Shown one piece after another: positions 8,901 through 60,717 of a DNA stretch of 64,000 nucleotides. The notes under the pieces were generated by a model. It was not told the DNA's origin and made no database searches. It worked only from the letters and a program-made list of their open reading frames with translations. How positions within the stretch are numbered: position 1 is the first letter of the stretch; each line of letters begins with the position of its first letter. This DNA comes from Phaeotremella fagi (Eukaryota > Basidiomycota > Tremellomycetes > Tremellales > Phaeotremellaceae). Position numbers and translations under genes: made by a program. Where the stretch lies: the NCBI GenBank assembly GCA_001599715.1, contig BCHU01000008.1, forward strand, positions 806,001 to 870,000. Reading direction: 5' to 3'.

Positions 8901-11891
8901 CCGTACTTTCCCAAATATGCGTGCAAGCTTTCGTAGCGGAAACTCCAGTGACTCTAGGTAGAACATGAACCAAGTAGTAAACAGCTATCAAAGCGTGAGA
9001 ATAGATCTCCGATTGATAGATCTCGTCGATGTGTGATTCAGCATATGAAGATAGAATCTCTAGCGAGGACGCAATGGGGATATCTGAATCTGAAGACGAT
9101 AATGATTCTTTAACCGAGTCATCAATTTTTGTCGTCACCAATGCTAGAACTGTATGAACAGCGTCTGAAGAAATGTGTTCTAAGTAGATTAGTAAGATCC
9201 ATTCTGACAACGCTTCACTCACTCGATCCGATAGCCGTAGCAGCCACTCGTGTAGCTTCGACTGAATCACCACTCAAAGCAGCTTCAGTAGCCTCCACAG
9301 CGATCCTATCATAACACCCATCAACCAACAACGAATCATCACCAGCCAGAAGCAAAACGTTGGTTATACCGAATCTAGCCTCTTGAGGTGTAAGTGATAA
9401 ATCCAACAAAGTCCATAAAGACTGTGTAACAGAGTTTCGAAGTTCAACATCGACCACTGAAGTGATGGAGGAGAGGAATGAGATGAACAGTAAAGGCGAG
9501 AGTTCTGTTGCAAGCATGTTTATATGTGAAATGACGATGTTGATGAGGTTCTGCCAGTCAGTCTGCTGTCGTAACAAGAACTTACCGCTTGAGCAGCCTT
9601 GTCCACAGATTCTGGATAAGTTTTCAATATCTCCACCAAAGATTCAACGTAAACCACAGATTCTTTCTCGTCTATCAAAACCTTCTCCAGACTAGAGATA
9701 CATCCATTAACAATAACTCTGATGATCCCGTCAACCCCCCTAACAAGCGTCTCATGTGACACAGTTCCCTTGAGAGCCGAAATAACCCCAGGTATCCTCG
9801 GTAAAATCGATTTAACATCGGTATCAACAGGGAAGCAAGACTCCAAAATTGTCGATTCCATAATAGGAAACAATTCGTTGATCAACCCTTCATTAATCCC
9901 AGCAACCCTTTCGAGCGAAGTTCCAAACATGACAGCTTCTTTCTCGACATTCTCTCCAGTTCTCATTCCACGTCGACCAAAAGCTTTCCCACCCATTGAC
10001 AAAACTCCTTCTTTCCATATTCTCAAACCAATTTGTTCACGAATCAAGTAGAGACTAGTGGACGATGTGGAGATGTCGGAATTCGATTTACCTATGAGAT
10101 AGGTGACGCAGTCTATGGCCGATTGGAGGAAGGCTTGGAAAGCTGATGGTGTTCCTGGGAAGGCGTGGGTTGAGAGGATGTGGGTATCGGACGGTGACCA
10201 TAGATGGGAGAGGAAGTTGTCAAGTGGTAAAGATGGTTCTGTCAAGGGTAGGAGGTCTGATGGGATGGTCGAGACTATGACCACAAGTAATGGGTAGGTC
10301 AAATGTGGAACGGAAGGACAGATTGTGGCGATGAATTCTAGAAAGTCGGAGTAGGACGTCGATGTCGAGGTTTCCGAATCAGGCTCCTCGTCGTCTTTGT
10401 CGTCAATCTCTTCTTCCTCGTCTGAGCCATCTGATCCATCGTCAGCAGTCTCCGTGGGTCGTCTCTTCATAACCTCTGCGGCGATAGCCCAACTATTTCG
10501 GAATTCTACATATTAGTATTCCGCCGAGGAAACAAACGTACTACTCAAGAATTTGACGACAGCTGAACCTGCCGTCTCCCACACTACCGTCTCCTTCTCC
10601 GACCAACAACTACTCAACACCGCCACTGAAATCAATTCAAGAAGATTATCCACAATTGCAGAGGGGTACGAATCGATGAGCGTCAATAAAAGAGAATAAG
10701 CAGCTCTACGAACGGCGGGTTGAGCGTATCCCAAGGAAGTAGACGGTTCCACCGAAAAGCGGCCCGATATAGAAGCCGATTCTAAAGACGAGAGTGATGT
10801 CCATAACAATGGACTTTTGAGCAAGACCAATATTTCCTCTGGAAGCGATTCCTTCACACCATCACTTAATCTCTGTATCAACCAGGACAACCCAATCAGC
10901 CCGGCTACCCTATATCTAGCCCATCTTTCACTTTCCAATTCTTCTTCCTCCGGAGCCGGCGTGGACTGAGTCGTGACAAGTGATGACGGTCTGGCCTTGT
11001 TGGCTTTGGCCAAAACTCTGGCAGAAGGTGCTGGAGACGAAGTGCCAGATGTTGGAATAGCTACTGGAGCGGGATGGATATCTTCGTGTAAAGATGTTGG
11101 ATCTATTATGGATAATTGGAGGTATTCTACCAAAGACGGTATGAGGGGTGTTAGATCGATTTTAGTCGGTGATTCTCCGAAGGCCGTCGACTCTGACCAC
11201 ACTCTGATACCTGCTCCTCCAGCTCGGCGGCCCTCTTCCAAGGCAGCTACTAACCACGATCCAAGGATATCACGATTTTGTGTACCAGGCAAGAGTGAAA
11301 GTGAAATGGTGTCAAGAATAGATGATCGTATCGAGTCAATAGACAGCAGTTCGTTGTGCAGCTGTAAAGCTGTACTTCGATGGAAAGGTGATTGAAGCAA
11401 ACTTGCTAAATTGTGCATCTGACATTAGTCCACATACGAAAACCAAAACTCACCCAAACAGGTACCGAAGCTAACAAAGCAAGTTCTTTAACCTCCCTTT
11501 CAACCTCCTCCTCCTCACTCAACCCAGTTTTACCAACAAAACCAACCCATCCTTCACGCAACTCCTCCAACCCTTTCCTTCGAGTGATATCATCTTTCTT
11601 CCCCAATCGTCGTAACACAACCACCAGATCGGCAGGTAAACTCCTAGCTAATCCTTGACCATCCAGTGGATCCGGTATAGGTGGAGCTGGAGGTTTAGGT
11701 GGTGGAATGTATTGTTTGATTTTTGGTAAAGCCTTCTTTTGGGCCTTACTCAATTTCTGACCTCGCTGTTTTTTGGTTTGGTTGGGTTGAGGAGGTTGGT
11801 CGTCACCTTCTTCGTTCACTTTTTTTGCGTGCTTCTTTCTTGTGTTTGATGAGGCTGAGGATTTACCTCCTTTCACTCCTGGTCTGACCAT
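5946..11891 (-). CDS. LTN1: Listerin, RING E3 ligase of ribosome quality control
   Basis: Ubiquitin ligase that tags nascent chains stalled on 60S subunits. About 1,750 aa over many exons. Seen: N-terminus from ATG 11891 with a basic run, then [19 protein letters not shown] and [15 protein letters not shown], which is the Listerin N-terminal signature. A long helical HEAT-type middle follows. The C-terminal part has [34 protein letters not shown] and a RING domain, ECAICYS with [17 protein letters not shown] and CPLCRS, stop 5948-5946. The RING is split by two introns; the acceptor before NGLILEAL restores the frame that otherwise hits stops. Acidic low-complexity stretch near 10,370-10,440. 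Size and end motifs match Ltn1 (yeast 1,562, human about 1,770 aa). Confidence 0.95.
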
Positions 11892-29307: not shown

Positions 29308-31189
29308 GGTGTGATGAAGGGGGTTGAGGGATCAGGATGTAAGATGGTGAGAAAGTGATGAATTTGGACTATGTTGTGGGTCAAGTCGAGAAATTCGTGA
29401 TGTATGATGGGTAGGGATCCAGAATTAGTTTGAGAAGAAAGGAAGTTTAGACCTGGTTTATAGTGTATTTAATGGGGTTTTTATCGTATTTATCTGAGTG
29501 GTGATTGAATGGTTTATACCTTGACAGAAAACTTATTGAATAGAGGTTACAGAGAGATAGCCATTCTTTGACCAGAGGGAATCAATCGTTGGTTTAGGTG
29601 GATGAAAGGACAAGACAAGTCAAGTGAAAGTCGAGAAACCCTGAAAATTTGATGATCTAGGTGACTGTCGAATAGCCTCGTAATTGGGTGGGAATGCGTT
29701 GTTGGAATTGGATGGTAGAGAGTTGCACACTATCCAAATAACCAATCACAGTTGACTGCTGTGTGATGAAGTTGAGTAACAAATGATCCCAATACCTATA
29801 TACCAAATTTCAACACCCACCAAAGAGATGGCCAAAAAATTCTTTAATCGATCCCCTTGATTTACGGTCCGTTGAAGTGGTCAAGCCACAAAGCGATTGT
29901 ACCGAAAAAAGCCGTTCAGAAAGTGAGTGGAGAAAACGGAATGAAGTCAACAGAAAAAACCAGCTTTTACCAGAGCGAGAATTAGAAAGAATTTTCACCA
30001 ACCCCACAAAGGACCCTCGTCGTCATGCTACTTGCTATTTGAGCACGTTCTTTCAACCCTTCCTTTTGGTACATCTCAAGACGTTTCAGAGTGTGTTGGC
30101 AAACATGGAAATGGTTTCATAAATTTGCACAAGACCTCATGCATCGACATTGATGGTATCTATCTGTGAGAGTTTGACTTTTGGGTATTGTGGTTGTACT
30201 TTTAGTAATTCTTAAATTTCTGCGTATGGAAATTATTTGTCGAGTTTGACCCAAGTCGTGAACAATGACCTATTATCCCAAATTACTTTTACATGCACCA
30301 ATCCCTCTCTGCCACATCATAATAATCTTCAACTGAAGATCATGGAGGCACAGAGGAACGAAAAGAATGATAAAATCCCTAACTGAACTCCTACTGAATC
30401 TACTTAGAAGCGTTATATTCCGCGGAATCCAAAGAAGGAGAAGAAGCTTAGCTGACGTCAGAGAGCTGACGCTGACAAATTGGTTTCGGCTCGATCAAAA
30501 GAGAAAGACCAACAAAAGAGAGTTAGAACCCTTGGCGAATGGGACAAGCCACAGTAGGGATGACGTGGGTGGGAAGAGAATAGTATGTTTTGCTTTGTTT
30601 GTAGTCTCGCACTTGTTGTCGAGTCGACGAAGACAAAGTGTAACTTATGGCGACTGGAGGTGGATATCCAAGAGCTCAAGAGCTAAGATGAACCTTGAGG
30701 TATGGTAAGTTAACTTAAATTTAAAATCCGTGCACGAGGTCGGAACCAATGACTGGTGACATACAACAGCTACGGATCCTGATATAATGAGTAGGTTAGA
30801 AGTACGACTTCCAAAAAAGGAAAGTACTACCTCCACTTGTAAGGACCACTAAGAGAATTGAGTGGCGAATACCTTCGGGGATGATGGGAATGCCTTCGGT
30901 GAAAGAGTAGATTAGTCCCTAACACGAAGGATGATTACTAAGGAGGGACAAGGACATATGCTGCATGGATGGATGAGGTGTCCCATTTTTATTTCTCCTT
31001 GTTCTTCCGATCTTCTTTTCAACATCAACATCCATAAACAGTGTTCTTTACTCATTATTTTGATTTTTTCTGATAAATTCGACTTTCGAAAAAAATCAAA
31101 AAAATCCAGAAAAAAAAATCAACATACATTCAAAACATTGATTGACGACGTGACGAGTACACTTCCCGGTATCCTCGGTTTGGTCCACA
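29308..31189. other. 1.9-kb intergenic region, no gene supported
   Basis: Divergent promoters of the PRPP synthetase and Ytp1-like genes. Open frames such as 30,367-30,708 (+) and 29,810-30,007 (-) show no domain, no codon character and no splicing partner. A short imperfect tandem repeat (GAATACCTTCGG / GAATGCCTTCGG) lies at 30,866-30,899. An A-rich tract at 31,088-31,120 precedes the Ytp1-like gene. This is the largest gene-free stretch of the window. Confidence 0.5.
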
Positions 31190-52242: not shown

Positions 52243-54164
52243 CTATAATGTATTGATATCAAAGATGGAAGAATCAAAATTCCAATTAATCGTGGGATCG
52301 CCTACGTTGAAAGGTTCGAACAAACTTCCAAAAATTGGCAGGGTCCCATCGAGCGGTAGCATATTCGTCGACAGGGTCATTGGTAACGACGCTGCAGTGA
52401 CAAGGGGAACCACTTGAAGACCTGAAATCAGTTTAGTCTCTCCTTGCACTCACCGAAAGCTTGAGCAACGGTCAAAATCTTGTCTCTACTCAGCAAAGCT
52501 TGATCTCCCCATCTTGGTATCATCAACGTCAAAAGCCAAGAAGCTATAGCCAAACTCGATTCAGCTTCCGACTTTGTAATCTCGTATTTCCAAAAGCAGT
52601 ATAGAATCAGTTGAGAGCTGATAATGACATGGCGTAAATGTTGCCAAACTAGGTTATAATGGATCCTCTCGTAAAGCTCCCCATACAACGCCAGGATTCT
52701 GGTAGACGATCTTGCTAGGATTGCCAAAGAGGACACTGTAAATCGTTTATCTCGTATGATCGCGGTACGCAACATGATTCGACCCCTTTCATTAGCCCAC
52801 CTTACATCAAACACTTACCATTCCCACAAAATTCCCAAGAACGGATCAGCAAAATGATTGCCCGTCGAACGACCTTCTTTAACCCAAGCTTCTGCCCAAG
52901 CTGACCACCTCTCTTCGATTCTTAGCACCCAATGGATAGATGAGTGGGGCGTGTAGATATCATGTAGATTCATCAAGAGTTGGGTGTTCAGAAGTAGCAA
53001 CTCCGTACTTGCCCGACGTGGGATCAACGCTGCAGGTAGATCCGTCACAGATGATGGTCTCGATTTGAAGATCATGGTATCGAATTCTCCCGGTCGCAAC
53101 ATTGGAGGTTGTTCCGTCATCGCGGTCGCCCAGCTGCAATTTGTTAGCGAACAGAAAGAAAAGTACTCACTAATGAGCATATAACACCTGAAGGAACATC
53201 AGGTCCGCCCTATCAACAGGAGACGTATTCGCAGCTAAAGCAGTTTCCTCTCTGTGTATACCTAATTCTTTCGCTTGAGATATCGTCCATGAAACAATGG
53301 ATCTTGTTGATTCACTGGTACAGGTTAAGGTACTGTAGAACCATAGGCAGCTCAACGCGTCTATCATTTAGCTTGAATCAATATTTCACTCACGTAAAGA
53401 AGTGAAACTAGAACTACCCCAGGTTTCCAAAGTATCTACAGCGTGTCGGTAATAGGCGACATCAAATCTAAGATGATCCGGTATTGGTATAGCTTCTCTC
53501 GTCTCCGGTATGAATCCTTGTAGTCTTAGAAATCCCAGTGCGAGATAACTATAGACAAAAGCAGTTTGATCAGGTAGTAAAGATTTAGGAGAAGTCGCGT
53601 AGCGTTCAAATAAATTCGTTACTCTAGCAGAAGTGACGAAACTGCAGAATGGGAGCATGTGATCGATGAAAGCTTGAAGTGCTGCTGGTGCTGAAGGTGG
53701 TAGGGTGGGTAAAGGCGGTATAGGAGTTGTCAGATCACATAGTGGATGAGTGTATGCTTCTTCAACCCCGAGGTCGATGGGGGTACCTTGACATCAGTGA
53801 CAGTCGACAAATTACCTACCTGCTTGCTGTTCATATATGTCCTCCAACTCCCCTTGAATCCAAGACAACGAAGTGACTCTTTCAGAATGACTAGTCCCAC
53901 TGATTTCTCCTTCCGTTGGGGATTGAACGGATCGTCGGCGCCTGTAATGTCAACACGAATTCTCATCAATATTCACCTCAGAGGTCGAGCCTGTTGTCTA
54001 ACTTCACAATCGTGTAATCCCGCTTCTCTACATCCTGAACATGGGTAAGGGGGTATACATCGTATACGTCTAGTTCGACAATTTTCGCATGCCTTTGCTA
54101 CTCTGCGAGACTTTTGATTAAAGTCGGACGAGGTGGTTTCTAGGTTCTCAAAGTTGGAATTCAT
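52243..54164 (-). CDS. Zn2Cys6 transcription factor beside the MFS/M20 pair
   Basis: Fungal regulator. From ATG 54164: MNSNFENLETTSSDFNQKSR then the zinc cluster ACENCRTRRIRCIPPYPC and SGCREAGLHDC (six Cys). Middle exons include QTAFVYSYLALGFLRLQGFI and the Fungal_trans-like WTISQAKELGIHREETAL. The last exon, reached over an intron at 52475-52446 (GTGAGTG...TTTCAG), gives LQVVPLVTAASLPMTLSTNM and ends INWNFDSSIFDINTL at TAG 52245-52243. The acidic hydrophobic end resembles activation tails of this class. Its position suggests it controls the neighbouring MFS and M20 genes, which is inference. Confidence 0.88.
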
Positions 54165-54625
54165 GTTGACGATTGACTTTGAAGGCGGAAGATGGATGTG
54201 GAGGTACAGTCCAGTATCGTTTGTGAGCCCCCCATTTTAGATAGCGGTCGGACGTTTTTTCAGTTTTGAGCATTTCTGCATTGACAACAACTGAGTCGAT
54301 TGGTAGGGTTGAGGTTCATAGTTTTAGGATATTGCTTGAGAATCCCTACGTGAAACATAAACCAATATCCTGCTTGCTGACAATCGAACAGGTTCAACTT
54401 ATTGTACGAGTGACACTTAGTGGCAATGTCCGTGCGTGGCTGAATCCTTTCAGAACGTGATGACTTATTGGTCAGAAACGTCACCGCCAATGCGAGCTGA
54501 GGAAACCGTCCTTTGTCATAAACCAGACACGCCTTCTCAGCTGACCACCAAGTCGTACTAAATACATTTCTGTCTTGGAGCTACATATAGTCCTAAATAC
54601 ATTCTTTTCAAGAATCTGAAGAATA
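54165..54625. promoter_or_regulatory. Divergent Zn2Cys6 / array-gene-1 promoter region
   Basis: 461 bp. The + open frame 54,266-54,460 and its minus partner are weak and not supported. Nothing else recognised. Confidence 0.4.
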
Positions 54626-55239
54626 ATGAGCCAATCAGGAAATGCTAGCACTGGCCCGATGGTCCAATACAGAGGTACGTGTTATCATTCGGCAACAAAC
54701 GTAGAGAACAAGGATAAAAGTGCCCGTGAAAGAGGCTATCACGACTCAAGAGTACAAAAAAACGAACGAAGTGAGGAAACTTGGAGTATCAACCCTTCAT
54801 CGTTGGCTACCAAGGTTAGAGAATACCAGCCCAATTGGTTAGAAGACTTCGACTGTGTGAGTGAAAATTCACGAGACTAAAGGTTTGATAGTCGTGACTC
54901 ATTGATTTTTAGTCCGCTGAAGGATGCAAAAAAACTCCCAGGATTCTGAGCTGTGTCATTCAAAACATTCGGCTTATGGGTTCGTGCTCCAAAGGGCACC
55001 CAGTAGATCTCTCAGAATTCGAATCGAATATTTATGCAATTGAAGGAGAAGAAACTTTCGAATATTATCTCAATAGAAGACTTGACGCAAATGATAGCGC
55101 GATAAGAGGATCAAAATGTGTAGCCGAGGGTGATTCTATTGAGCGGGTCGAGTTTGTAGGTACAGATATCTCACGTACTTATGAGGCTGTAACTAAGGAG
55201 GAGAAAAGTACAAGTGCAGGTGGAGAATCTTTATTGTAG
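54626..55239 (+). CDS. Tandem orphan family, copy 1 (185 aa)
   Basis: First of five paralogues. Exon 1 is 54626-54856, the intron 54857-54912 starts right after a Cys codon, and exon 2 is 54913-55239. Seen: RGTCYHSATNVENKD, WSINPSSLATKVREYQPNWL, EDFDC at the splice, then CKKTPRILSC, MGSCSKGHPVDLSEF and the family's GTDISRTYE. Family consensus: C-Y/F-H-S near residue 20; W-x-I/V-D/N-P-x-x-L; D/E-Y-x-x-x-W; Cys at the intron; C-S-x-GH-x-V-D/N-L-S; and a late G-T-x-I-T/S-x-T/I-Y-type motif. No signal peptide, no membrane segment. Function unknown. The C-terminus is shorter than copy 3. Confidence 0.8.
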
Positions 55240-55919
55240 CAGACAGAAAAAGCTTGATGTGATGCCAGGTTCGGAAAATACACCTTGAAATACAGAAGTT
55301 GTCGGAATTCGTTGACCACATTAGAGCATACATATGATCAGAGATCATTGAAGTATTCGTACATTCTTGACAAATTGGATTCATCGAAGACCATTGCTCG
55401 CTTTCAATCATAAAATCAGTTTGCAAAGTTGAAACAGGATTTTACTAACAATTCTTTCTGTGTTGGAAAAGTTGTAGAAACGGCCACAGCCTCATCTATG
55501 TATACTAGACTTTCCATTTCTACAAGGGGAACACAAACACTCTCCCATAATGAAAGAAAACGCTTGCCGACGATAGTGAAAAATATTGTACTTAGTTGGA
55601 AAAACGACTACCATGAACTCCATTCTTAGATCAACCTTTCAGGCGTTCAATGTGACCATGAACAATTCATTGTTCTTTTCTTTTATAAAAGGCAAGGAGT
55701 CATCCAATTGATACATCCTTTCAAGACTCGCCGATTCGGAAAAGAAAGACCCATTGTGTCTGAGCTCTTGCCTATGACGTTTTCGTTCTTTTGTGTAGCA
55801 CTTGCCTTCCATGTCTAGAAATTGAAGCAGTAGTAAACTGCTCGTATTTCAAAAAGTCTTTTTCTTTCATTCACATTTCCTCGACGAACCATTTTCGAAT
55901 TTACCAAAAATTTTTTGCA
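55240..55919. repeat. Inter-copy spacer with duplicated block and TATA-like element
   Basis: A block at 55,481-55,605 is duplicated at 57,351-57,475 (shared CTACAAGGGGAACAC and ACAGCCTCATC). A TATAAAAG at about 55,684-55,691 and CATCCTTTCAAGAC (about 55,717) precede copy 2. The fragment GAACAATTCATTG recurs before copy 3. The small open frames here are not supported as genes. Confidence 0.6.
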
Positions 55920-56572
55920 ATGAGTTCAGCTGAAGATTCCACACTTAAAATAAAATACACAGGTAGATGCTTTCATTCAAAAGAAAACGAGTTGAATTTT
56001 TTTCGTCGACTTCACAGCCGGACGCGCTATATAAATGTCGTCCGTCTCACAACCAAGGAAGATTCATGGGTTGTCGATCCTGAACGTCTTGGAGAGGTGG
56101 TTAGAGAGTATCAACCAGGTTGGTTGAATACAATGGGATGTGTGAGTCAAGTTCTAGGATCGAATTTTTGGTTCGTGATCGATTGTTCTAATGCATTATT
56201 TCTCAGAGGGTATCAGGTTGCGAAGGGAGTGGGAGTCCCAGAGTCTTGACTTGTCAATTCCAAAATTTCCAGATTCAAGGTTCATGTGAAGACGGTCACA
56301 AGATAGATTTCCCAACCGCTACGTCGCATTTCGAAAAAGATTCTCTGGTATTTCTAGACGATACTTTCGAAGATCGCATCAAGAAAAGCCTTTTGAGCTT
56401 TCAAGGTTGGTTACAGTGTAAGTGTGATGAGGGTGGGCACTCTGTCTTCAATATCCAGATCCCTGGTACAGAAATCACTGGTACCTACGACTCCGAATCA
56501 TCCGAAATTGAGTTCACCAATCGAGGCTGTCATCTCACCACAGTCAGCGTTCAGCCTGGTGAAAGACGTTAA
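55920..56572 (+). CDS. Tandem orphan family, copy 2 (195 aa, most divergent)
   Basis: Second paralogue, 195 aa. Exon 1 55920-56141, intron 56142-56206 after the Cys codon, exon 2 56207-56572; start ATG 55920 (MSSAEDSTLKIKYTGRCFHS). Seen: GRCFHSKENELNFFRR, SWVVDPERLGEVVREYQPGW, LNTMGC at the splice, RVLTCQFQNFQIQGSCEDGH with KIDFP, and IPGTEITGTYDSESS. CEDGH replaces the CSKGH of copies 1, 3 and 4, and FHS replaces YHS. It keeps all shared Cys but has a longer basic insertion after LHSRTR. It lies 680 bp downstream of copy 1's stop. Confidence 0.78.
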
Positions 56573-57782
56573 GACTCGAGGATGATGGTTGTCTCACGAA
56601 ATGATCTTTATTAGGGGCTGTGCTTCTGTTTTTATTGGAGGTGTTCAGAAGCTTTGTGTCAGAAAGAGGTTGTTATAAGGTAGTAGGCTGAGGAATGGTT
56701 ATTAATTTGATAGTGCACCTGAGCATACGTTTCTTTTCAAAGACTGCGGCATGATTGCCGGAGGAAAACATGCCTTCAGTTTTGAGATACCTCATCAAAA
56801 CCTCAGTGTGGCGGTGTGGTGGCACTACAGTACAAGCATTGTCCGGACGGGTGCACTACAGGAGAAATCTAGCTGTTTCTTGCACGTCAAGAGGTTCTGC
56901 TAGTACTTGTATAGGCTTGAGGTACTACAGCGATGTCAGTCACACAGCGAGCATGTACAGTAAGTGGACAATTCCGTGCCCAAGGTAATGAAAGTCTAAT
57001 GAAAGTCTTTCTATGACAACAGCTTTTCGAAGCAAAAAAGTGAAACACATGTGGCGCTTTCCCATGATACTGTAGATATCTCTTTTATCGCGGATTTCGC
57101 AACTTCCAATTCGCCCATCACGAGTAACAACTACAGAGATGATGAAATATTCATAGTTTCAACTACTTGTTTCTTCTCTGTGGAGCACAATATGTTTGCA
57201 AGAGATGGCCATTTGCCTTTCGTTGACTCGCACTTTGCACAGCATTTTTCCTCTCAATCTCTTTCCTTTGGTAGAGGCTTCGTTGTGGAGCCATGGGTAC
57301 TGTCGGATGCAATTCCATATCAGAAACATCTCCCATGCTGTCAACGCCGTAAGAACGCGTACAGCCTCATCCCTACATGTTTTTCTCTTTCTACAAGGGG
57401 AACACGAACACCCTCCTAAAATAAACGACAACACATGCTGTTAATCGTGGAGAATATACCTAAGTGAGTAAATCAGTAAATTGAAACATTCATTAGAAGG
57501 ACAGAGCAGATCTTAGCCCGAAACCAGAGATAAGTCAAATATCAATTTCGGGAATAACAGGGGAAGTGTTGTAACAGAGCGTATCCTTTCAAGACCATGT
57601 TTCTCAGTGGAGCACAGTAAGAAAAGGAGGTTGTCAGTGACTCATGAACAATTCATCCTTTCACTCAATGAACCTTTTGACGCCTTCTACTGCAGAAAGC
57701 AGAAAAAAAGGAGATACTAAAAGGTCATTTTCTTTCAAAACTATCCTTCCAACATATTTCTTTCTAAAAATTTGTCCTTACC
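56573..57782. repeat. 1.2-kb spacer with copies of promoter and 3' modules
   Basis: Contains the 57,351-57,475 copy of the block at 55,481 and the promoter module 57,466-57,760 that recurs at 58,708-58,985 before copy 4. Shared landmarks: CAGTAAATTG, CCCGAAACCAGAGA, GGAGGTT, CATGAACAATTCATCC, TCCTTTCACTC, CTGCAGAAA and GAGATACTAAAAGG. A GTGGAGCACA motif occurs at 57,181 and 57,608. Its size leaves room for a lost copy, but I see no clear gene remnant in 56,573-57,350. Confidence 0.65.
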
Positions 57783-58640
57783 ATGAGTTTGACACCAAGC
57801 AATGATCGCCCAACTGTTCGATACAATTCATGGTGCTATCATTCAAAAGCCAATCAAGCTCTGTTTCACAACTGGTCTGGTAATCCAAATGTGCGTGATA
57901 AGGGTATGATCGATTGCAAGGAAGCCGAACAAACTTGGGTTATTGACCCTAGCCGTTTGAGAGAACAGGTCAAAGACTATCAATCAGAATGGGTTAAATC
58001 TTATTCATGTGTGAGTCAATCATGACCCAAAAGAAGTCCTAACAATGCTGAATCTATCCATTTGACATAGGACAAGGATGAGTGTACAGAGGGTGGTCCA
58101 AGAGATCTTGAATGTTACATTGAGAATCTCCGACTTAAAGGCTCTTGTTCTAAAGGTCATCCAGTCAATCTTTCCAGTGTACTCAAAAAAATTGGTGATG
58201 TACTCGATGCAGGTGGAGATTATACTTTTGAAGAATGCATTTCAGAGTGGCTAAGTGAATGTCAGGAGGAAGAGATATGTGAATGTGGAGAATGTGGCGG
58301 TGAGATCCACACGATCGAGGTTGTTGGTACCGGTATCACTGGTATCTTTGGAGCTGATTCGAAGATGATTGTCAAAAGAGCTGATGGAACTCCGATCAAA
58401 GTCCCAGAAGTCGAAACAGTCGCCACTGATTCAGATCACGAAGAAGAAGATCCAGTCATACAGTTTCTTGGTGGGCTGGCTGGAGTTGATTCGATGAGTA
58501 AACAATGTTTGACGAGGGAGGAGTTTGAGTATACATATGAAGTAACCGATAGCTCCATAGTTTCCTGGAAAGATGTAGTCAAAAAGTTTTTGTTTGCAAT
58601 TTTGTCAGTTAGTCCTAGCTTGTCTCAACACGCTACTTGA
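57783..58640 (+). CDS. Tandem orphan family, copy 3 (265 aa, longest)
   Basis: Exon 1 57783-58010 (MSLTPSNDRPTVRYNSWCYH), intron 58011-58070 after TGT, exon 2 58071-58640. Seen: SWCYHSKANQALFHNW, TWVIDPSRLREQVKDYQSEW, VKSYSC at the splice, LECYIENLRLKGSCSKGHPV, an acidic Cys cluster CECGECGG and EVVGTGITGIFG. Unlike the others it carries about 75 extra residues after that motif, including EETVATDSDHEEED-type acid and REEFEYTYEVTDSSIVSWKD, ending SPSLSQHAT. The extension is also present as a decayed remnant after copy 4, so it is probably ancestral to both. No signal peptide. Function unknown. Confidence 0.8.
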
Positions 58641-59010
58641 TTGTAACCTAAAAATGAAAGCAAACGCCTTCCGTCGATCTTGAAATATGTACTCGAGTAC
58701 TTATTGTGTAATATATCAGTAAATTGCAAATTTCATCAGAAGCTTACAGTATAGCCCATCCCATCTTATCCCGAAACCAGAGAGAATCAAATGTCTTCTT
58801 TCGGAATGACAGTGTAAGTGACAAAAGGAGGTTTTCAATGACTCATGCAATATTGATCCTTTCACTCGATAAACCACTTGACGCCTGACGCCTTCCACTG
58901 CAGAAACCAGGAGATAAGAGATACTAAAAGGTTGTTACTGTGTCTGGTGAAAACTGTTCTTCCAGAATTTTTCTTTTTTACCACAGTAATAACAAGAAAT
59001 CAACGCCACA
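58641..59010. repeat. Promoter module of copy 4, second copy
   Basis: Related to 57,466-57,760 over most of its length. It lacks about 50 bp around the GTGGAGCACA motif. A 7-bp duplication TGACGCCTGACGCC occurs at about 58,880-58,893. AATGAAAGCAAACGCCTTCC (58,652) relates to the 3' blocks of copies 1 and 2. Confidence 0.65.
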
Positions 59011-59649
59011 ATGAGTTCGACATCAAGCAACGATCTCCCAACTGTTCGATACGAATCATGGTGCTACCATTCAGAAGCAAATCAAACTCTGTTCAACAGA
59101 TGGTGTCACAATCCAAATGTACGTCAGGAGGGTCTGATTAGTTGCAAGCCAACCGAAAAAAAATGGGTTATCAACCCCAGCCGTTTGAGAGAACGGGTTA
59201 AAGACTATCGATCAGAATGGGTTAAATCTTATCTATGCGTGAGTCAATCATAACCCAAAAGAAATTGTAACAGTGCTGAATATATCCATTTGACATAGGA
59301 CGAGGATGAGTGTACAAAGAATCCTCCAAGAATTCTTGATTGTTATATCGAGAATCTCCGACTTAAAGGCTATTGCTCTAAAGGTCATCCAGTCAGTCTT
59401 TCAAAAACAATAAGAGATCAACTGGATGAAGAGATCCATTCAGATGGAGTCTATTCTTTTGAAGGCTATATTTCAGCGTGGTTGGATGAATGTGAGACTG
59501 AAGAGAGGTGTAAAGTCAGTAGATGCCGCGAGCAGATCAGAACAATCGAGGTTGTTGGGACAGGTATCACCTGTACTTTGAGAACTGGTAGGGAAAAGGT
59601 TTTCACAAGATCTGATGGAAGTCGGATCCAAGTCCCAAACTTTAGTTAA
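59011..59649 (+). CDS. Tandem orphan family, copy 4 (192 aa, C-terminally shortened)
   Basis: Closest sister of copy 3 (exon 1 MSSTSSNDLPTVRYESWCYH). Exon 1 59011-59238, intron 59239-59298 after TGC, exon 2 59299-59649. Seen: SWCYHSEANQTLFNRW, KWVINPSRLRERVKDYRSEW, VKSYLC at the splice, LDCYIENLRLKGYCSKGHPV, a Cys pair CKVSRC and EVVGTGITCTLRTG, then RSDGSRIQVPNFS and TAA 59647-59649. The intron sequences of copies 3 and 4 are alike (both end CATTTGACATAG). Downstream sequence still resembles copy 3's tail but is broken, so this copy has lost its C-terminal extension. Confidence 0.8.
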
Positions 59650-60112
59650 GTTATTTAGTTTCTCAGTGGGTTGGCTGATTTTGTTTCGACGATTTAACGA
59701 TGTCTGACGAGGGAGGGTTTTGAATATGTACAGTAACTGATAGTTTCATGGAAAGATGTAGTCAAAGTTTTTTGTCGCAATTTCGCCAGCTACTCCTAAT
59801 CTGTCTCACCACATTGGTTGATTGTGGCGTAAACGCATCCTAGCATGGTACAGTGATACTTATCAAAGTGGAGCCAGATCCTTTCAATCAATGCTTCTCC
59901 GAGTGGAGCATGACGTGATGGAATTTTCAAAAATATATCACCGAATTCATCCTTTGATCTGTTGAAACGATTTGAGCCTTCTGGTTCAAAAACGGAAAAT
60001 AAACCATTACTGATAAGACTTTCTTTCCAGGAGTAAGTTCTTCTTTCTTACCACAATACTTCAAGCACTTCAGTTCATTACACACAACCAGTCAAAAAAA
60101 TCGAACGCCACG
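59650..60112. pseudogene. Decayed C-terminal remnant plus promoter of copy 5
   Basis: 59,650-59,826 resembles the 58,458-58,643 coding tail of copy 3 with indels and stops: TTTCTCAGTGGGTTGGCTG, TGACGAGGGAGG, TTTCATGGAAAGATGTAGTC and CTCACCACATTGGTTGATTG correspond to copy 3 segments. The rest (59,860-60,110) holds related promoter fragments TCCTTTCAATCA, GAGTGGAGCATGA and GAATTCATCC, then the leader of copy 5. Confidence 0.7.
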
Positions 60113-60717
60113 ATGAGCTCAGAACCAAGTAACAACGAAGGGCTAACACTCTACAGCACCATTAAATGCTATCATTCAGAAGAATGTTTCAACACCTACG
60201 GTTTCCCTGGTGGTATAACAGATCGTGTTGGAATCGCCAAAGGAAGATGGGACATAGATCCCACACGTCTCAACGAAACTGCGAGTCACTACGATTCTGA
60301 TTGGGTCCGATCATTTCAATGTGTGAGTCAAGTCCAATCAATGATTTCGAGTTGTTTTCTAGTCTTACTGCTCCTTTTTGAAAGAATAACGTTGATTGCA
60401 CAGGCGGTCCCAAAAAGATTGAATCTTACATCGAGAGTATTCACCTAGAAGCCTCCTGTGAACACGGCCATTCGGTCGATCTCTCCGCTAAATTCGAATA
60501 TTCCAAAAACCCATTGTTCATAGGTAGGAAGGTACCGATCGAAAAAGAGATCGCACTTCGCCTTTTTTTCACTGAGGCAAAATGGCGGGCCTCTAAATGC
60601 CATGAAGATCATTGGGTTCAACGCATCGTTGTAGGTACCGGTCTTACAGGTACTTGCGGAATCGACAAGAAATGGCATTATGCCAGAGCCGATGGATCTG
60701 AGATCGACTTCTTATAG
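60113..60717 (+). CDS. Tandem orphan family, copy 5 (173 aa)
   Basis: Start ATG 60113 (MSSEPSNNEGLTLYSTIKCY). Exon 1 ends at 60320 after the first base of a Cys codon; the intron is 60321-60403; exon 2 is 60404-60717. Seen: IKCYHSEECFNTYGF, RWDIDPTRLNETASHYDSDW, VRSFQC at the splice, PKKIESYIESIHLEASCEHG, HSVDLSAKFEY, VVGTGLTGTCG and a basic-acidic end ADGSEIDFL. In copies 1-4 the intron follows the whole Cys codon; here the donor used must be two bases upstream (T / GTGTGAGT) to keep the frame. Total 522 nt. No signal peptide. Function unknown. Confidence 0.78.

Follow-up and report, generated by a model that had tools for sequence, protein, structure and literature searches.

Much of what is unexplained among fungal genes belongs to orphan families. 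Described systems of nearest likeness are the lineage-restricted tandem families of fungi, the Zn2Cys6 cluster domain (PF00172) and the metallothioneins. The array treated here lies at positions 54626-60717 of a 64,000-nucleotide stretch of Phaeotremella fagi (contig BCHU01000008.1, positions 806,001 to 870,000; hereafter the window, at its full length). Five tandem genes (g1 to g5) on the plus strand and one dispersed gene on contig C4 form one family of common descent, with a shared intron, intact frames, three invariant pairs of Cys/His residues and an octamer upstream of all six genes. In common with lineage-restricted tandem families are the local array with its one dispersed gene, array identities of 26-59%, the lack of any library match and three like families in the same genome. 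Differing are the six invariant Cys/His residues and the single octamer shared by all six promoters. As for the Zn2Cys6 cluster domain, an intracellular, Cys-based metal site is expected; unlike in that domain, the pairs mix Cys with His, the spacing is another and none of the six proteins matches PF00172, the same scan detecting a neighbouring true member (E 9e-7). Metallothioneins are likewise small soluble Cys-containing proteins in tandem copies, but very high Cys content is lacking here (4.2% of residues over the six proteins) and Trp, Leu and Gly are invariant as in a folded domain. A metallothionein is rejected.

Composition and divergence of the family

Array proteins g1 to g5 are connected by pairwise BLASTP at E 2e-13 to 1e-82. 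Identity is 26-36%, except for g3/g4 (59%); the C4 protein is 23-29% identical to the five. A left-out member is recovered by the profile of the other five at E 4.9e-24 or better. The position of the C4 gene in the tree is not firm (support 0.50). Protein searches of the source genome (22.6 Mb, 24 contigs) with all six proteins as queries reveal no seventh member; such searches score the best candidates only, and family counts are lower bounds (here at least six genes). The family is probably lineage-restricted.

Gene models of the array, built from sequence and homology, give five intact two-exon genes of 180-265 amino acids (aa). Introns of 56-65 nt, with GTGAGT donor and AG acceptor, are in phase 0 right behind a Cys codon (5/5); the single intron of the C4 gene lies one codon further 3'. 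Coordinates, strand, two-exon structure and common intron position in the initial annotation are correct for each of the five genes. Lengths of 173-265 aa, also given there, are wrong (Table 1): only g3 is long, owing to its C-terminal tail, the other four proteins having 180-195 aa. The motif set first written for the array is real but looser in an alignment of the five read by eye. C-[YF]-H-S and W-x-[IV]-[DN]-P-x-x-L are present in 5/5 proteins. [DE]-Y-x3-W is present in 4/5, g5 having H-Y instead. C-S-x-G-H-x-V and G-T-x-I-T occur as written in 3/5 each, and in the looser forms C-x-x-G-H-x-[VI] and G-T-x-[IL]-[ST] in 5/5.

No relic copies are detected elsewhere in the window at E < 0.1, except a stretch behind g4 that matches the g3 tail. 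The g3 tail and this stretch behind the g4 stop are 52% identical over 59 residues; the stretch is therefore old, and in g4 it is not part of the reading frame. The C-terminus of the C4 protein looks, by eye, similar to the acidic beginning of the g3 tail.

Cys/His core and library searches

The alignment of six proteins has 15 invariant columns. Six of these are Cys or His, forming three pairs, and are kept in 6/6 copies: C18-x-H20 near the N-terminus, C76-x4-C81 at the exon junction and C102-x3-H106 about 20 residues after it (g3 numbering). Cys/His amount to 6.9% of residues overall, giving a binomial tail of 3e-4 for columns that are not strictly independent. Hydropathy reveals neither a membrane segment nor one like a signal peptide; the maximum 19-residue mean is 1.17 (g3 only), 0.71 or less in the others. 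Absence of both, as first annotated, is borne out by hydropathy alone, and disulfides are therefore less likely than metal. Cys/His pairs of this sort generally bind zinc in intracellular proteins. The three invariant pairs suggest an intracellular zinc site, in keeping with the metal binding proposed at the outset.

Pfam-A contains no family above the curated cut-off for any of the six proteins; weak matches have E 0.12-0.18 for array proteins, and none is obtained at E <= 10 for the C4 protein. NCBIfam and PHROGs, scanned with the five array proteins, yield one and two matches, the best (E 0.095) below significance. Among PDB sequences the full-length profile has no match at E <= 10, and exon 2 has one chance match (E 1.6). 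A possible resemblance of exon 2 to the cyanovirin-N homologue domain (CVNH, PF08881) is not confirmed; no Pfam match is obtained for the six proteins. Viral contigs gave 16 pattern matches, 0 confirmed. The literature was searched for the kind of family and for the motif, and among the papers listed nothing on either was found.

Against 5.8 billion proteins, the profile of five full-length proteins returned 2052 candidates with 0 at E <= 1, and the six exon-2 sequences returned 460 candidates with none at E <= 1. An Rcl1 exon used as control query in the same database gave 73 matches at E <= 0.001 among 165 candidates. Named matches include Kwoniella shandongensis, K. newhampshirensis and Cryptococcus bacillisporus, so the database does hold Tremellales proteins; the best named match has 58% identity (K. 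shandongensis), unnamed ones reaching up to 73% over 90% of the query. Six of the 15 member pairs are without any common 5-residue word, and the database prefilter can therefore miss true relatives. Not even identical copies of the array proteins came back; annotated proteins of the organism for the array genes are therefore absent from the database or left out. Absence of relatives in this database is weak evidence. The designation of the family as unrecognised is supported by Pfam, NCBIfam, PHROGs, PDB sequences and, with the weakness of its prefilter, the large protein database. Its designation as unique is not supported.

Promoter octamer and flanking genes

The octamer TCCTTTCA occurs on the coding strand 154-234 bases before the start codon of all six genes (6/6). 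Within 600 bases upstream of the six genes there are seven TCCTTTCA sites, none of them on the opposite strand. As the data themselves had yielded the word, the controls considered every 8-mer. Dinucleotide shuffling of the upstreams, repeated 3000 times, never produced an 8-mer common to more than four of them, whether all six were used or five (without g4). Among 3000 draws of six low-GC pieces from the window, none had an 8-mer present in all six; with window pieces taken at random (200 sets) the maximum was five pieces with one 8-mer, reached once. Parts of the g2 and g3 upstreams can be aligned, as can parts of the g3 and g4 upstreams, and the g4 site falls in the part that aligns with the second g3 site; the octamer sites of g2/g3 and g3/g4 are therefore not independent. 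Upstreams of g1 and g5 align with none of the other array upstreams at E 1e-3 (C4 upstream not compared). Elsewhere in the window the octamer is present at 11868, 20201 and 21326 on the plus strand and at 29603-29610 on the minus strand.

Genome-wide, the 9-mer ATCCTTTCA has 448 + 452 = 900 sites vs 77 + 86 = 163 for the reversed pattern, a 5.5-fold over-representation. It is probably a regulatory word of the fungus. Among the first 100 listed sites, all on contig C1, neighbours on the same strand lie less than 1.5 kb apart in nine cases vs 3.0 expected (nine reached in 4 of 2000 random sets), and neighbours on opposite strands in three vs 3.0 expected. One of the same-strand clusters belongs to the L059 trio treated below. 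At 20 of these 100 sites, taken at even steps, an open reading frame (ORF) of at least 100 aa starts 60-350 bases downstream in 8/20 and in the mirrored direction in 5/20; for the 13 of them outside frames of 200 aa or more the counts are 7/13 and 4/13. One gene downstream of ATCCTTTCA is Rrp12-like. A Pfam match above cut-off is lacking in nine of ten chosen motif-downstream proteins and also in seven of ten stop-to-stop ORFs of the window (picked at steps along it from 28 that are similar in size and not in the array); this state is thus not distinctive of motif-downstream proteins. The word occurs more often than expected and would fit a regulatory site, but not one demonstrably specific for tandem families. 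No paper with ATCCTTTCA or TGAAAGGAT as a whole word was found in the library searched. Eight further loci are arranged around the 13-mer ATCCTTTCAAGAC in the genome.

The array is flanked upstream by a gene for a Zn2Cys6 regulator, which is, by position only, a candidate regulator of the array. Rcl1 flanks it downstream.

Table 1. Genes of the family, octamer sites of the array and flanking genes; positions refer to the window unless a contig is given.
Feature	Position	Strand	Length (aa)	Exons	Intron (nt)	Remarks
g1	54626..55239	+	185	54626-54856, 54913-55239	56	BLASTP E 7e-29 to g2
g2	55920..56572	+	195	55920-56141, 56207-56572	65	
g3	57783..58640	+	265	57783-58010, 58071-58640	60	C-terminal tail long, acidic at start
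g4	59011..59649	+	192	59011-59238, 59299-59649	60	nearest relative g3 (59% identity)
g5	60113..60717	+	180	60113-60322, 60385-60717	62	
C4 gene	C4:1484877-1485548		204			sixth member, dispersed
TCCTTTCA	54445..54452	+				181 before g1 start
TCCTTTCA	55716..55723	+				204 before g2 start
TCCTTTCA	57584..57591	+				199 before g3 start
TCCTTTCA, second copy	57656..57663	+				127 before g3 start; in stretch alignable with g4 upstream
TCCTTTCA	58857..58864	+				154 before g4 start
TCCTTTCA	59879..59886	+				234 before g5 start
Zn2Cys6 regulator	53976-54167	-				divergent from g1; Pfam E 9e-7
Rcl1						E 3e-27

Proposed role and rival explanations

On a tentative reading, given somewhat less than an even chance, the family consists of binding or adaptor proteins that are stabilised by zinc and serve a condition-specific programme. 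Its members would be small soluble intracellular proteins. The Cys/His pairs would bind one or two zinc ions and thereby pin a small domain of mixed alpha/beta type. The middle and tail, which vary more, may contact partner molecules that are not the same from copy to copy. All copies would be expressed in one programme, be it of stress, starvation or development, through a common transcription factor that reads the octamer. Duplication would have been local, with weak constraint letting the middle and tail diverge afterwards.

The proportion of nonsynonymous differences (pN) is below that of synonymous differences (pS) in all ten array pairs (0.40-0.53 vs 0.64-0.80 in the nine pairs other than g3/g4); the frames are therefore kept as protein. 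For g3/g4 the ratio of nonsynonymous to synonymous substitution rates (dN/dS) is 0.73 (bootstrap 0.48-1.22). By segment it is 0.79 (residues 1-50), 0.52 (51-110), 0.65 (111-152) and 1.04 (153-188), all four intervals including 1. The lowest value, counted in favour of the proposed role, is that of segment 51-110, with Trp, C-x4-C and C-x3-H. Local tandem expansion with fast divergence, as proposed in the initial annotation, is supported by the identities outside g3/g4 and by the g3/g4 ratio. Positive selection has no evidence, the ratio being significantly above 1 in none of the four segments; the comparison of dN/dS among copies suggested at the outset, run on g3/g4, thus gives no significant excess over 1. 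Introns of g3 and g4 (58011-58070, 59239-59298) match at 54/60 positions and exon 2 at only 249/348 (Fisher p 0.002); against exon 1 the Fisher p is 0.17. A local conversion tract or intron constraint is possible.

Several observations weigh against the zinc-stabilised, octamer-driven family. The predicted zinc site has no family match behind it. The single structure model is poor (mean predicted local distance difference test score, pLDDT, 54.3; predicted template modelling score, pTM, 0.51), so the geometry of the predicted zinc site is not assessable from it. The interval of the g3/g4 ratio includes 1, and relaxed drift is therefore possible. Core (0.52) and middle (0.65) have wide intervals; both dN and dS are low in segment 51-110 (0.13 and 0.25; 0.47 and 0.73 in segment 111-152), and the contrast of core and middle is therefore not due to selection alone. 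The difference between downstream and mirrored ORFs at ATCCTTTCA sites is weak. None of the four paralogues of the motif-bearing L065 gene carries TCCTTTCA in the fetched upstreams, a failed prediction by which the octamer as a general marker of orphan or tandem families is rejected. In the L067 family ATCCTTTCA is listed at only the first of four C1 members.

Ordinary duplicate turnover under relaxed constraint, with no special role and with the octamer as a common promoter word of the species, is quite possible. It agrees with the g3/g4 ratio, whose interval reaches 1, and with the 900 genome sites of ATCCTTTCA, one of them upstream of the Rrp12-like gene. Comparable tandem arrays in the genome make it a serious rival. 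Three tandem single-exon paralogues at L059 (G000 C1:2198200-2202600) have 236, 236 and 226 aa at the chosen starts, 28-39% identity and the octamer at -146, -172 and -194 of these starts; two scanned members have no Pfam match above cut-off. A five-member family consists of a tandem trio and two dispersed genes (C1:488518, C1:871130-873663, C6:732538), with the octamer at the first member only. A six-member small-protein family consists of a tandem four (C1:730440-735849) with further members at C2:2019804 and C2:1394884. With these three families the array is not unique in kind, and tandem arrays of small proteins do not appear to be rare in the genome. Duplicate turnover is opposed by six frames intact despite 26-36% identity in the array outside g3/g4 and 23-29% to C4, by pN below pS and by the six invariant Cys/His. 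The conflict or recognition role first suggested as possible for the family gains no support from dN/dS, which is not significantly above 1, or from the existence of other small-protein tandem families in the genome. Adjoining the C4 copy are two small paralogous proteins on the minus strand (L033 2904-3329 and 3894-4484; 29% identity, E 9e-6), possibly another orphan pair.

Divergent membership of a known domain family that sequence no longer reveals, with a zinc-ribbon-like, treble-clef-like or lectin-like fold, is rather unlikely. The six invariant Cys/His would suit such a fold, as would the order beta-hairpin, helix, beta-meander in the better half of the model, which is exon 2 (residues 111-210, ten-residue blocks with pLDDT 54-79); relatives so diverged would escape sequence libraries. 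A wider form of the favoured reading, in which a new zinc-stabilised domain is joined to a genome-wide octamer-driven programme that also controls other orphan small-protein tandem families, is improbable. Secreted small cysteine-rich effectors or adhesins, with disulfides for stability and a non-classical route of export, are very improbable: small size, tandem array, fast divergence and Cys pairs would fit, but the N-terminus is not hydrophobic (maximum 11-residue hydropathy 0.52; the N-terminal signal peptide of a secreted small cysteine-rich protein is lacking by hydropathy), Cys is too scarce and the conserved pairs mix Cys with His, as is typical of metal sites.

The family is real and so far unrecognised; it is new in sequence and ordinary in kind until structure or expression say otherwise. 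Its first description was a good one, to which a sixth member and a promoter word are now added. A concrete handle is given by the six sequences, in which the Cys/His core is invariant, and by the promoter word common to all, the C4 copy included. If a new domain and an octamer programme were both true, lineage-specific gene families would have a regulatory route of their own. Should the octamer prove to be a real regulatory site, its factor and the inducing condition would tell when these unnamed genes are used, the step usually missing for orphan families.

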